From Bacteroidia bacterium (lineage in GTDB: Bacteria; Bacteroidota; Bacteroidia; J057; JAIXKT01): 51,683 nt of DNA. The notes under the pieces were generated by a model. The model saw only the letters and a program-made list of their open reading frames with translations, did no database searches and was not told where the DNA came from. Location of the stretch: positions 1 through 51,683 of the forward strand of contig JAIXKT010000029.1 of NCBI GenBank assembly GCA_026932145.1, given 5' to 3'. Both the position numbers and the translations under genes were made by a program. Positions 33,729 through 39,675 of this stretch are shown piece after piece; position 1 is the stretch's first letter; each line of letters opens with the position of its first letter.

Positions 33729-33736
33729 TAACTTTG
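33729..33736 (+). promoter_or_regulatory. -7 box TAACTTTG for tRNA-Val
   Basis: Exact TAnnTTTG, 13 bases before the tRNA 5' end, the same spacing as at tRNA-Arg. It probably serves the downstream lipoprotein gene too. Confidence 0.45.
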
Positions 33737-33749
33737 CGCGGTTAATTAA

Positions 33750-33824
33750 GGGATGTTAGCTCAGTAGGTTTAGAGCACTATCTTGACAGGGTAGGGGCCA
33801 TTGGTTCGAATCCAATACATCCCA
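33750..33824 (+). tRNA. tRNA-Val (anticodon GAC)
   Basis: Cloverleaf: acceptor GGGATGT/ACATCCC, D stem GCTC/GAGC, anticodon stem CTATC/GGTAG with loop TTGACAG (anticodon GAC, codon GTC), T stem ATTGG/CCAAT with TTCGAAT. The discriminator is A and CCA is not encoded. Only 5 bases separate its 3' end from the ATG of the next gene. Confidence 0.95.
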
Positions 33825-33829
33825 CAGCA

Positions 33830-34735
33830 ATGAGATACCTTTGGTCTTTTCGGTTCATCCAATACAGTCTCTCTGTATTAGCAGGTTTTTTTTTATTAAC
33901 TTCTTGCAAACCAGAACCTAAAAAAATATCTGTGGTTAAATATGTTACCCAATTAGATGGAATTAAACTCTATGAAAAACCGGATACATCTTCAAAGGTA
34001 ATGATGGATTTGCTGTATGGAACAACATTGCATTGCTCCGCTGAAATGCCAGGAAAAGTCAAGTTTGTAGAGAAAGATGCTGACAATAATATAATTACCG
34101 AAAAAATATCTGATTGGGTACAAGTAACCTTTAAGAAAAAGACCGGCTGGGTATTAGGATATTATTTGGCAAATTTTTATGATAACCGCCCTAAAACGGA
34201 GGCAACTTTGGTAGATTCTCTTACCCAAGAATCTATTCCGGCAGACCACCCCAATGCACGTATTAAATCCCCCCGTGAAAGCAGTGATATTATTAATATT
34301 ATCCACGACAAGCACTACCCTGCCTTTACTTATAATAATGACATCGAAGACTTACGTGTACCGGGAGATTCTTTGCACGTCTGGAGTTTACCGGACGTTG
34401 AATACGTAGGGAAATATCAAGCTGCCTTAGCTTCTAATATTTCAACATTACAGGTAAGTTTAGAAAACGGAGCGCTGAAATATACCCTAACCTACACTTC
34501 CGAAAATATCTCACCAGAAGGAATGGTAGATGACGAAGTTCACGAAGTTACCCTAAAGGCCACTAAAAAAGGATCATTTGTTAGCTGGGAAAAAATTCCG
34601 GATATAGATGAAACCTACGGAGAATTTGTCTATTGGAATACCGCAAACGGAAAACATGAATATGGATTTTTAATGTACCAAGTTCACGCCAGAATCCCTA
34701 AACTAATCTTACTACACCTAACATCGGCAGATTAA
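33830..34735 (+). CDS. Lipoprotein with SH3-like domain
   Basis: A 301-residue protein with a lipoprotein signal (FFLLTSCKP, Cys26). Residues about 38-120 form a bacterial SH3-like domain (YVTQLDGIKLYEKPDTSSKV in pieces, ISDWVQVTFKKKTGWVLGYYLANFY). The remainder has no family I recognise. SH3b domains bind cell-wall or protein ligands; here it would face the periplasm. It starts 5 bases after tRNA-Val, with no other usable start codon before the lipobox, and is followed 22 bases later by the acyl-CoA-synthetase-like gene, so all three probably share the tRNA promoter. Confidence 0.75.
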   Translation: MRYLWSFRFIQYSLSVLAGFFLLTSCKPEPKKISVVKYVTQLDGIKLYEKPDTSSKVMMDLLYGTTLHCSAEMPGKVKFVEKDADNNIITEKISDWVQVTFKKKTGWVLGYYLANFYDNRPKTEATLVDSLTQESIPADHPNARIKSPRESSDIINIIHDKHYPAFTYNNDIEDLRVPGDSLHVWSLPDVEYVGKYQAALASNISTLQVSLENGALKYTLTYTSENISPEGMVDDEVHEVTLKATKKGSFVSWEKIPDIDETYGEFVYWNTANGKHEYGFLMYQVHARIPKLILLHLTSAD

Positions 34736-34757: not shown

Positions 34758-36224
34758 ATGTCTCTTATTTTGGGTACAGACCCCAAAGACGGGCTTAAAA
34801 AACTCAAAAATATGGTTCAGCATTGGGAATTTTGCTACGGGCAGAATATTTCCGAAAACGTAGCCTTTGTGAGTGTTAGCCCAGATGGTAAAAAAACAGA
34901 ATATTCTTTTAAAGAAATCCATGCACGCCAGCAATGTTTAGCAGCCTTTTTGGTACAGCAAGGTGTAAAAAAAACGGATGTAGTAACTATAATCGCAGAA
35001 AACACCCCTACCAGTATATTAAGCAGCTTATCCGTAACCTATGCAGGCGCAATACTATCTCTACTACCGGCAGATATCCCCATCCCACAGCTAAAGAAAA
35101 TAACCCAAACACTTCCCTCCAAAGTTATAATCTTCACCAGCTATAAGCTATTCAAATACTTTCAAAACGAAATATTTCCGCTACCCAAAGACCAAATAGC
35201 TGTTGTTTGGACAGAACACTATGACGAAATTTCAGAAGATGACAAAATTATTACTGCCGAAATAGCCATAGAACTTGGAAAAAATTTCTGGAGAGAAGAT
35301 GTAGCACTAATACGCTCTGTTCGAGAAAACATAAACTCAAATGATATTTATTGCATTGAATGGAATCGAGATTCTAAAAATAACTTTAGCGGATATTATA
35401 TTTCACACACGAACTATCTAAAAGCAATCATACGTTGGTTAGATACATTCAAAAATTTCCCACAAAAGAGCAATATCGGCTTACTAAAATCCCCGGCAGA
35501 ACCTCACCTAAGAACAATTGGGGTTTATGCAGCCATGAGTTATTTCAATGTTGTGTGGTTCTTGAAAATATCCCCCAGAGCACTCAAAATACTATCTAAA
35601 GAAGATATAAAAGTGCTGATAACCAATGGATCTGCAATGAATCTTTTTGCTACATGGATAACAAATAAAGTAAATTACTTAAACTGGTTATCTAAAAAAG
35701 TAGCACAATCCGGATTCAAAACAAATGTTCAATACACCTCATATCTTGATAAACAACTCTCCCCTCCCATCGGAATTAAAGCCCGAAAGTGGTTTTCATA
35801 CCAGTATGTTTTAAGAAAACTAAAACAGCAACTAATCGGGAAGAAAAATATCATCATTATTACCAATGATTTAAAACTTCGACCAGATTCTCAACTTATT
35901 TTAGAAACCCTTGGCATTCAAGTATTTATTGGCTCTTCGGATGCTGCGGTTGCCGGATTCTGGGCAGTTAATACCCCCAATGAAAAGAAAACATATTCTA
36001 TTGGTAAAATATTTAAAGATATTCAACATATTCTCAAACTTGACCAACAGGAAAAAAGCGATAGTGAGCAAATTTCTTTGGGGAGAATAATTTTAAAAGG
36101 TGAAGAGACCTCAAACCGGCCAACAGAAGGTAGCCTTGCTAAGGAAGGAGTTATTGTAAGCGGCAGATTCCATGTAAAAGACGGTTTTTTATACCGATAT
36201 ACCAGCTCAAGCAACAAAGAATAA
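34758..36224 (+). CDS. Acyl-CoA-synthetase-like (ANL) protein lacking all catalytic motifs
   Basis: The 488 residues follow the long-chain acyl-CoA synthetase plan: N-terminal part (VSPDGKKTEYSFKEIHARQQ, VTIIAENTPTSILSSLSVTYAGAI), HTNYLKAI at 217-224 where FadD proteins have THxNLxxN, and VNTPNEKKTYSIGKI then DGFLYRYT near the end. Every catalytic motif is gone: the YTSGTTGxPKG loop reads IEWNRDSKNNFSGYY (200-214), GYGxTE reads IGSSDAAVAG (391-400), and TGD reads SGR (468-470). The C-terminal subdomain with the catalytic lysine is absent. The frame is intact with no stop or shift, so it looks like a retained pseudoenzyme, perhaps a binding or scaffold protein. It lies between the SH3 lipoprotein and sdhC. 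Confidence 0.75.
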   Translation: MSLILGTDPKDGLKKLKNMVQHWEFCYGQNISENVAFVSVSPDGKKTEYSFKEIHARQQCLAAFLVQQGVKKTDVVTIIAENTPTSILSSLSVTYAGAILSLLPADIPIPQLKKITQTLPSKVIIFTSYKLFKYFQNEIFPLPKDQIAVVWTEHYDEISEDDKIITAEIAIELGKNFWREDVALIRSVRENINSNDIYCIEWNRDSKNNFSGYYISHTNYLKAIIRWLDTFKNFPQKSNIGLLKSPAEPHLRTIGVYAAMSYFNVVWFLKISPRALKILSKEDIKVLITNGSAMNLFATWITNKVNYLNWLSKKVAQSGFKTNVQYTSYLDKQLSPPIGIKARKWFSYQYVLRKLKQQLIGKKNIIIITNDLKLRPDSQLILETLGIQVFIGSSDAAVAGFWAVNTPNEKKTYSIGKIFKDIQHILKLDQQEKSDSEQISLGRIILKGEETSNRPTEGSLAKEGVIVSGRFHVKDGFLYRYTSSSNKE

Positions 36225-36246: not shown

Positions 36247-36281
36247 TTTGATAATAATTCCAAAAAGAAAACTTACCTTTG
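36247..36281 (+). promoter_or_regulatory. sdhCAB promoter: TTTG (-33) and TACCTTTG (-7)
   Basis: TTTG at 36247-36250 and TACCTTTG at 36274-36281, 23 bases apart; about 25 bases of leader, with TAGGAG at 36303-36308 just before the ATG at 36311. Confidence 0.5.
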
Positions 36282-36310: not shown

Positions 36311-36985
36311 ATGATAACTACAAAAAGCAGACCTTTTTATGCGGCATCTATCGGCAAAAAGCTGATGGTGGGCATAACAGGTCTTTTTTTATGCTCATTT
36401 TTAATTGTTCATTTAAGCGGAAACTTTCTGCTTCTCAAATCCGATGGTGGCTCTGCGTTTAATACTTATGCAGATTTTATGGCACATAGCCCGCTTATCC
36501 GAATTATGGAACTTGTATTAGTAGCAGGTATTGGATTCCATATTTTCTTTGCGATCAAGTTGTTACGCGAAAACAACGAAGCCAGACCCCAAAAATATAC
36601 CTTTTCTAACCCTAACGCCAATTCAAGTGTATTCTCAAGAATTATGGGACCTACCGGAATGGTAATATTGATATTCGTGGTAGTTCATTTATTAAACTTC
36701 TTTGCCAAACATCGTTTTGGAGAACCGGGGGAAACAATGTACGAAACCGTAAAAAATGCGTTTGAATGCTGGTATTATGTGCTGTTTTATGTTACTTGTA
36801 TGGTTTTTTTAGCCTTCCATCTAAGTCATGGTTTCCAAAGTGCTTTTCAAACATTAGGCTTAAACAGCTCCACAAGTGCTTTTCATCAACGCATTAAACT
36901 CTTAGGAAAAATATTTGCCTTTGGGATATTTGCAGGATACGCATCTATCCCATTATTTTTCTTCATAAAATCATTCTTAAATTAA
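36311..36985 (+). CDS. sdhC: Succinate dehydrogenase/fumarate reductase cytochrome b subunit
   Basis: The 224-residue membrane anchor has five hydrophobic helices and several helix-borne histidines (LIVHLSGNF, GIGFHIFFAIKL, VVHLLNFFAKHRF, FHLSHGFQSAFQTLG) that suit a di-heme type-B anchor. It passes electrons between the Fe-S subunit and the quinone pool. It heads the order cytochrome b, flavoprotein, Fe-S protein usual in Bacteroidota, starting from its own promoter. Confidence 0.93.
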   Translation: MITTKSRPFYAASIGKKLMVGITGLFLCSFLIVHLSGNFLLLKSDGGSAFNTYADFMAHSPLIRIMELVLVAGIGFHIFFAIKLLRENNEARPQKYTFSNPNANSSVFSRIMGPTGMVILIFVVVHLLNFFAKHRFGEPGETMYETVKNAFECWYYVLFYVTCMVFLAFHLSHGFQSAFQTLGLNSSTSAFHQRIKLLGKIFAFGIFAGYASIPLFFFIKSFLN

Positions 36986-37006
36986 TTAGGAAAAATAATA
37001 TCAAAC

Positions 37007-38917
37007 ATGAATTTAGAGTCTAAGATACCGGAAGGAACTATTGAAGAGAAATGGAAGCGATATAAGTCTTCGATTCGCTTAGTAAATCCGGCCAATAAGC
37101 GAAAGTTTGAAGTTATTGTAGTAGGAACAGGTCTTGCAGGGGCATCAGCAGCCGCAACCTTAGCCGAATTAGGCTATCAAGTGAGTGCATTCTGTTTCCA
37201 AGATAGCCCACGCCGCGCCCACTCCATAGCTGCACAAGGAGGTATCAATGCTGCCAAAAACTATAAAAATGACGGAGATAGCGTTTACCGGCTATTTTAT
37301 GATACAGTAAAAGGAGGCGATTATCGAGGACGAGAAGGAAATATTTATCGCTTAGCCGAAGTCAGCGTCAATATTATTGACCAATGCGTTGCGCAAGGTG
37401 TTCCATTTGCCCGTGAATACGGCGGAACCTTAGATAACCGTTCCTTTGGCGGCACACAGGTATCCAGAACTTTTTATGCACAGGGGCAAACAGGTCAACA
37501 ACTTTTATTAGGAGCTTATTCCGCTCTAAGCCGTCAGATTGGCTTAGGTACGGTAAAAATGCACCCCAGAACAGAACTCTTAGACCTCATTATTATTGAC
37601 GGCAAATGTAGAGGAATTGTTGTCAGAGATTTAAAAACAGGCGAAGTTTCTGCTCACCACGCTCATGCCGTTTTACTTTGCACAGGCGGCTACGGAAACG
37701 TATTTTATCTTTCTACAAACGCAAAAGGCTCAAACGTAACCGCAACATGGAAAGCCCACAAAAAAGGAGCATTCTTTGGAAACCCCTGCTACACCCAAAT
37801 TCACCCAACTTGTATTCCCGTAAGCGGTGATTACCAGTCAAAACTAACCCTTATGTCCGAATCCTTACGGAATGACGGCCGCGTATGGGTACCCAAAAAC
37901 CCCAATGATACCCGAAAACCACAGGATATTCCCGAAAATGACAGAGATTATTATTTAGAGCGAAAATACCCCGCCTTTGGTAATTTAGTGCCACGAGATA
38001 TAGCCTCCAGAGCTGCCAAAGAACAATGCGACCTCGGAAAAGGCGTTGGCCCCTCTAAGATGGCCGTTTACTTAGATTTCGCAGACGCAATCAGCCGGCT
38101 GGGAGATGACAAAATCAAAGAACGTTACGGAAACTTGTTTGAAATGTATGAACACATTACAAATGAAGATCCTTATAAAACTCCCATGCGGATTTATCCA
38201 GCAGTTCACTACACAATGGGCGGCCTCTGGGTTGATTACAACCTGATGACTACCGTTCCCGGACTTTTTGCCCTTGGTGAAGCTAATTTTTCTGACCACG
38301 GAGCCAATAGATTAGGAGCAAGTGCCTTAATGCAAGGCCTTGCAGACGGATATTTCGTAATTCCTTATACTCTCGGAAATTACCTCGCCGGTGAATCTTC
38401 CGCAACCATCGCCGCAAATCATCCCGCCTTTCAGCAAGCAGTTCAGGAAGTTAATGATAGAATTAAGTTACTTCTGAGTATTAAAGGAAAAAAAACACCC
38501 GATGAATACCACCGTGAACTCGGCAAAATCATGTGGGACTACTGTGGTATGGCCAGAAATGAAAAAGGTTTAGAATATGCCAAAGCTCAAATCCGTGCTT
38601 TACGTGAAGACTTTTGGAAAAATGTACTCATTCCGGGAAATGCACAAGAACTAAATGTAACTCTTGAAAAAGCCTTGCGCGTGTCAGACTTTTTGGAACT
38701 GGGAGAACTTATGGTTATTGACGCATTACACCGCAAAGAATCCTGCGGTGGCCATTTCCGCGAAGAATATCAGGAAGACGGAGAAGCTAAGCGCGATGAC
38801 GAAAACTTCACCTACGTTGCCGCATGGCAATATCAAGGCGAAGGAAATGAACCTGTCTTACATAAGGAAGACCTTGTTTTTGATTATGTTAAACCTACTA
38901 AACGCAGCTATAAATAA
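37007..38917 (+). CDS. sdhA: Succinate dehydrogenase/fumarate reductase flavoprotein subunit
   Basis: The 636-residue catalytic subunit oxidises succinate or reduces fumarate. FAD-binding [19 protein letters not shown], the [20 protein letters not shown] segment near the covalent flavin site, [16 protein letters not shown] and the C-terminal [18 protein letters not shown] are all present. Size and motifs match type-B enzymes of Bacteroidota and Epsilonproteobacteria. Its stop and the sdhB start share one base (TAATG). Confidence 0.97.
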
Positions 38918-39675
38918 TGAGTGCCACTCGTAATTACACACTTCGAATTTGGAGGCAATCTTCCGCAAATCAGTCTGGATCTTTGCAAGAATATAAGGCA
39001 AGCAATATTTCTCCAGATACATCTTTTTTGGAAATGTTAGATATTGTTAATGAGTCTATTTTGAAATCCGGAGGAGACCCAGTAGCCTTTGATCACGATT
39101 GCAGAGAAGGTATTTGTGGAATGTGTAGCTTATACATAAACGGTCGCCCACATGGGCCGCTACAAAAAACGACTACTTGCCAGCTATTTATGCGTAACTT
39201 CCCAGACGGTGAGGTTATTTACATAGAACCTTGGCGAGCAAAAGCCTTTCCGGTTATTAAAGACTTAGTTACAGATAGGTCTGCATTTGACAGAATCATG
39301 GCTGTCGGCGGTTTTGTTTCTGTCAATACCGGTGCTGCCGTAGATGCTAACGCAATCTTAATTGGAAAAGAGCTTGCAGACCAAGCCTTTGATTCTGCGG
39401 CTTGTATTGGCTGTGGAGCATGTGTAGCTGCCTGCAAAAATGCTTCTGCTATGCTTTTTGTGTCTGCAAAGGTAAATCAGTTAGCCATTTTGCCGCAAGG
39501 CGCACCCGAAAGAAGAAAACGGGTGGAAGCTATGGTCGCCCAAATGGATGCCGAAGGCTTTGGTAACTGCACCAATACCGGTGCCTGTGAAGCTGAATGC
39601 CCCAAAGGAATTTCAGTAACGAACATCGCAAAAATGAACCGTGAGTTCATCTCGGCTACATTAGATTTACTTTGA
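38917..39675 (+). CDS. sdhB: Succinate dehydrogenase/fumarate reductase iron-sulfur subunit
   Basis: The 252-residue subunit carries three Fe-S clusters: the [2Fe-2S] site [16 protein letters not shown], and the two cubane sites [13 protein letters not shown] and [16 protein letters not shown]. It links the flavoprotein to the cytochrome b anchor. Overlap with sdhA by one base shows coupled translation. It is the last gene of the sdh operon. Confidence 0.96.

Follow-up and report, generated by a model that had tools for sequence, protein, structure and literature searches.

A single-origin family of acyl-CoA-synthetase-like proteins without adenylation motifs in one bacterial order

Within the window, a 51,683-nucleotide stretch of contig JAIXKT010000029.1, we identified a gene for a 488-residue protein, P0001, that resembles the N-terminal domain of long-chain acyl-CoA synthetases (LACS) and lacks both their catalytic motifs and their C-terminal domain. 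Its match to Pfam AMP-binding (PF00501), together with the predicted N-domain fold, establishes P0001 as a member of the ANL superfamily by descent. The protein is one of eight diverged homologues of 365–488 residues, the other seven being approximately 16–22% identical to it, and these constitute a pseudo-ANL family of single origin that is restricted to one order. We consider it probable that the family consists of LACS-derived, order-restricted pseudoenzymes that act by partner binding through a newly conserved surface.

Frame, lost motifs and predicted fold

The P0001 frame is intact, running over 488 codons from ATG to stop with exact coordinates, and it resembles the neighbouring genes in base composition by codon position. 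The sequence shows no evident signal peptide or membrane segment. PF00501 matches residues 34–136 with an E-value of 6.8e-13 and a score of 48.6 bits, above the gathering cut-off of 29.9, although only profile positions 11–100 of 384 are covered. The NCBIfam models for acyl-CoA synthetases also hit this stretch, with scores far under their cut-offs. P0001 has in common with LACS enzymes, such as ttLC-FACS from Thermus thermophilus (PDB: 1v25/1v26) and Bacteroidota LACS like L002, from the same genome as P0001, the N-domain fold and, along the first third, a similar sequence (PF00501). In contrast to these enzymes, it lacks the P-loop, the GYGxTE and TGD motifs, the hinge and the C-terminal domain carrying the catalytic lysine, and it possesses an additional motif, GKx[FYW]WRE.

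The first-pass annotation had described an uninterrupted frame on a FadD/LACS-like backbone in which the residues of these three motifs are replaced and the C-terminal subdomain is missing, and both descriptions hold. Alignment to LACS enzymes places NRDSKNNFSG at the P-loop and GSSDAA at the A5 (GYGxTE) position, and the chain stops six residues after DGFLYRYT, so that both the hinge and the domain carrying the catalytic lysine are missing. The coordinates given for the former TGD, residues 468–470, need correction, as the alignment puts it at residues 480–482. Preserved spacing up to the DGFLY segment had also been proposed. The alignment bears this out, and it is the only source of that support because the C-terminal stretches have pLDDT values below 50 and the predicted fold is confident only over residues 7–393.

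An AlphaFold2 model of P0001, built from seven family sequences, has a mean pLDDT of 76 and a pTM of 0.75, with pLDDT below 50 at residues 394–470, 472–479 and 482–488. Residues 7–393 are predicted to adopt the fold of an acyl-CoA synthetase N-terminal domain. The best 50 Foldseek matches of the model are all ANL enzymes, and VIA-align gives Z-scores of 33–31 to many ANL structures over approximately 340 residues. The model of a second member, from genome G010, shows the same fold, with Z-scores of 31–28 to ANL structures. A different fold, which the first-pass annotation had named as an outcome that would count against it, was therefore found for neither protein.

The top structural match of both modelled members is an ANL-like chain of 450 residues, chain E1 of the I+III2+IV respiratory supercomplex from Euglena gracilis (PDB: 8iuf), with a Z-score of 33.0 over 338 residues at 3.1 Å for P0001 and 31.2 for the G010 member. 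For P0001 this ties with 1v25, a long-chain acyl-CoA synthetase (Z 32.1, 343 residues, 3.1 Å). Chain E1 differs in being eukaryotic and is only 13–16% identical in sequence, with no sequence-level match found at E<0.001. Because of the tied Z-scores and the 13% identity, we see no special kinship between P0001 and chain E1. Judging from the chain name, E1 is probably NDUEG1, which belongs to the "FAS domain" of complex I, located in the peripheral arm, in Euglena gracilis (PMC10884005). The ANL N-domain-like fold is not named in main-text passages of that paper. By analogy, chain E1 offers a precedent for an ANL-like fold serving as a built-in accessory part.

Distribution, origin and selection

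A protein search of 60 relatives returned weak matches with frames of 368–487 residues in the same order. A profile built from the eight members scores 450–590 bits to exactly these eight sequences within the order, and the next-best matches are full-length enzymes, at no more than 102 bits in the order and, across 395 class genomes, no more than 185 bits. Pfam AMP-binding matches every member at E ≤ 0.01. They come from seven of the eight sampled families (f1, f2, f3, f5, f6, f7, with two genera, and f8), each holder representing a different genus, and outside f4 eight of the nine sampled genomes of the order carry the gene. No pseudo-ANL gene was found in the 13 genomes of family f4. Members beyond the order were not found in the class scan (approximately 395 genomes), and in a scan of 395 genomes of the phylum nothing but the window gene passed 1e-60. 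We also scanned 84,980 GTDB species for [EDF]xGKx[FYW]WRE[NDH], a search that is blind to members without the motif; 71 stretches matched, of which six encode relatives, all of them members of the order that had already been found.

The gene is also absent from G002, a close relative of G008, where a search with P0003 finds only LACS. This absence looks real, since the G002 contig that matches the G008 locus continues for 39 kb beyond the synteny break; these same two observations argue against an assembly gap as its cause. Near position 35314 of G002:C64, the synteny of the two relatives with L082:1176, at 87% DNA identity over 1.2 kb, breaks off just ahead of a lipoprotein gene and the pseudo-ANL gene, both of which G002 lacks. 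As it is missing from G002 and from all 13 f4 genomes, the pseudo-ANL gene is dispensable.

The survey of homologues for the same motif losses, suggested in the first-pass annotation, gave a uniform result. No member retains the P-loop, an exact A5 motif ((Y/F)GxTE) or TGD (0/8 in each case), whereas 31 of the 33 ANL enzymes used for comparison give a P-loop hit with the same patterns. All eight proteins stop before the C-terminal domain with its hinge and catalytic lysine, and their C-termini differ in length. In G006 and G010, the least diverged members with the shortest branches, the A5 position reads GFGLNET (P0002) and GFGVHAS (P0005). These two proteins end in DWIYLGTQ and DGWVYLED, at the same place as P0001; three of the eight members stop at about this point. 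Conversely, GKx[FYW]WRE is present in every member and in none of the 33 other ANL enzymes. W23, A56, C60, W178, R179 and E180 are invariant in the family and variable in 29 LACS-type enzymes.

In the phylogenetic tree, the eight members form one clade (support 97/93) separate from the 33 ANL enzymes, with long branches that weaken its exact placement and leave its internal order unsure. The pseudo-ANL trait requires a single change on this tree, compared with 7.5 in shuffles. We conclude that the family arose once.

G006 and G010 are the only pair close enough for a dN/dS estimate. Their pseudo-ANL proteins are 48.5% identical, with a dN of 0.48, a dS of 1.36, which is near saturation, and a dN/dS of approximately 0.35; counted by codon position, the two genes differ by 0.38, 0.31 and 0.58. 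The adjacent M50 protease gene in the same two genomes gives a dN of 0.485 and a dS of 1.385. Because these values equal those of the pseudo-ANL gene, we conclude that purifying selection maintains the latter in this pair. Across families, pseudo-ANL identity is 22–27%, as against 43–55% for LACS genes of the same genomes, which indicates faster evolution. The proposal that P0001 is a selected, non-catalytic protein thus stands with respect to the catalytic motifs of all eight members and to selection in G006/G010, and the window gene lies outside that pair.

Frames are open in all eight members, the single in-match stops in G001 and G007 apparently falling past the ends of the ORFs. Homologues that keep the P-loop or are frameshifted, either of which would have counted against the first-pass annotation, were not encountered. 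A recent pseudogene is ruled out by the eight intact frames and the dN/dS value. A slower process, in which a relic under weak constraint decays gradually and is kept by chance in several lineages, would fit the long branches and low identity, the absence from G002 and family f4, and the variable C-termini. We regard it as very unlikely, given the open frames with a strictly invariant motif in eight lineages and a dN/dS equal to that of the intact neighbouring protease gene.

Gene surroundings

In the window, the pseudo-ANL gene lies between an SH3_3 lipoprotein gene and sdhCAB, with sdhC starting 86 bases downstream (Table 1). The tRNA-Val, lipoprotein and pseudo-ANL genes may share a transcript that starts from the promoter-like element at 33729.

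Table 1. Coordinates of the features discussed, in the window unless another locus is given
Feature	Position	Strand	Remark
Promoter-like element TAACTTTG, Bacteroidota-type -7	33729..33736	+	TAnnTTTG pattern match; upstream of tRNA-Val, lipoprotein and pseudo-ANL gene
tRNA-Val(GAC)	33750..33825	+	Ends 4 bases ahead of the lipoprotein start codon
SH3_3 lipoprotein	33830..34735	+	22 bases upstream of the pseudo-ANL gene
Pseudo-ANL protein P0001, 488 aa	34758..36224	+	N-terminal domain of LACS type; catalytic motifs and C-terminal domain missing
W23	34824..34826	+	Family-invariant; LACS enzymes have L or F and sometimes I
K52, A56, C60 and A62	34911..34943	+	Family-invariant; K52, A56 and C60 form one helical stripe (i, i+4, i+8); A56 and C60 columns variable in LACS
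GKNFWRE, residues 174–180	35277..35297	+	Family signature GKx[FYW]WRE; end of the helix preceding the former P-loop strand
Former P-loop, NRDSKNNFSG, residues 203–212	35364..35393	+	Replaces TSGTTGxPKG; by alignment to LACS enzymes
Former GYGxTE (A5), GSSDAA, residues 392–397	35931..35948	+	GYGLTE in LACS; by alignment to LACS enzymes
DGFLYRYT, residues 475–482	36180..36203	+	On the DGWFYTGD position; by alignment to LACS enzymes
Promoter-like element TACCTTTG of sdhC	36274..36281	+	TAnnTTTG type; pattern match
sdhC, sdhA, sdhB	36311..39675	+	Outside the system described; adjacency not conserved
M50 genes beside pseudo-ANL genes	L076:8014-9342, L077:10715-11911, L078:9711-10997, L079:10292-11497

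Neither flank of the window gene is conserved, as sdh genes and the SH3 lipoprotein were not found near any other family member. A search for relatives of the lipoprotein in 22 other genomes detected none, and the promoter-like site of sdhC suggests that sdhCAB forms its own transcription unit. These observations rule out the link to sdhCAB or to the lipoprotein as a conserved feature, and the ties to both that the first-pass context had hinted at are not upheld. Another possibility is that P0001 belongs to a respiratory complex, as a subunit or as an assembly factor. The proximity of sdhC and the top match to chain E1, a case in which an ANL-like fold sits within such a complex, point in that direction; however, ordinary acyl-CoA synthetases match as well as this chain, which is 13% identical, the other members lie away from sdh genes and sdhC carries its own promoter-like site, so that we consider this role highly improbable.

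No neighbouring gene is common to all members. In four of the eight (G004, G005, G006 and G010, from three families), a gene for an M50 site-2-type protease stands head-to-head with the pseudo-ANL gene. In G004, G005 and G010 the two starts are 26–84 bases apart, and this short distance suggests that the genes share a promoter region. Neither the window's genome nor G008 yielded this M50 gene, and most f4 genomes carry it in the absence of the pseudo-ANL gene. The protease is thereby rejected as an obligate partner and retained as a lead. In G007, the next gene downstream on the same strand (L080:7386-9152) encodes a full-length FadD-like ligase with P-loop-like and GYGLTE motifs. The M50 and FadD neighbours are leads toward lipid or membrane handling.

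Proposed origin, role and significance

The established ANL mechanism needs the P-loop, the adenine/ribose motifs and the C-terminal domain. As the family has none of these, canonical catalysis is not expected, and its sequences make it almost certain that adenylation and thioesterification have been lost. We propose that the common ancestor, derived from a long-chain acyl-CoA synthetase, lost its P-loop and was truncated before the C-terminal domain, and that the remaining adenylation motifs, A5 among them, later decayed at lineage-specific rates. The N-terminal domain would have been retained and a family-specific surface gained, putatively comprising the K52–A56–C60 stripe, W23 and GKx[FYW]WRE. 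For positions that are variable in the enzymes yet invariant in the family, a contact site appears to be the best explanation, and this new surface, on two helices, would contact a partner.

Two other functions could be served by the retained domain. A ligand-binding protein would keep the old acyl tunnel or pocket and would buffer or sense fatty acid or acyl-CoA without chemistry; this would be in keeping with the lack of an evident signal peptide or membrane segment and with retention of the N-domain that holds the LACS acyl pocket, a domain modelled confidently as far as residue 393. We nevertheless consider it unlikely, as the helices that carry the newly invariant positions are distant in sequence from the nucleotide motifs, and to our knowledge none of the family-invariant residues is a recognised acyl-pocket residue. 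Alternatively, C60, K175, R179, E180 and K52 could together serve as a new active site with no connection to adenylation. Their invariance despite approximately 16–28% overall identity is compatible with such neofunctionalisation, as is the restriction of the C60, R179 and E180 set to the family. Against it, no cofactor or metal motif is co-conserved, and the invariant W23, W178, A56 and A62 resemble packing rather than catalysis, which makes a new enzyme quite unlikely.

We lean towards the view that the family acts as a protein-binding partner. As the protein contacted, we would first suggest a true acyl-CoA synthetase or some other enzyme of membrane lipids, since it is through the N-domain that LACS-type enzymes dimerise and one member adjoins a FadD gene; a LACS as the actual partner is a tentative suggestion that we hold to be rather unlikely. 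Similarly speculative is a more specific version, in which the protein would be a non-catalytic, obligate subunit with a function in regulation or assembly, governing acyl-CoA synthesis or the handling of membrane lipids in the order and docking through GKx[FYW]WRE and the C60 stripe.

Other inactive or altered adenylation domains are known. FAAL-like or inactive domains, as in DIP2 and silent NRPS A domains, have lost or changed one half-reaction. Such domains occur within larger proteins and as a rule retain the complete fold, in contrast to the pseudo-ANL proteins described here. Our literature search returned nothing relevant on ANL pseudoenzymes or inactive adenylation scaffolds, and no paper joining pseudoenzymes with the ANL/adenylate-forming family.

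The Pfam AMP-binding matches of the eight members, with P0001 exceeding the curated cut-off, make it likely that automated annotation labels them as acyl-CoA synthetases, which their sequences rule out. A small pseudoenzyme family of single origin, with active relatives in the same genomes, provides a clean system for studying the roles of the ANL fold after catalysis, and the invariant GKx[FYW]WRE motif offers a direct handle for mutagenesis and partner searches. If the obligate-subunit reading were true, the family would represent a bacterial pseudoenzyme of the acyl-CoA-synthetase type that has its own dedicated partner.
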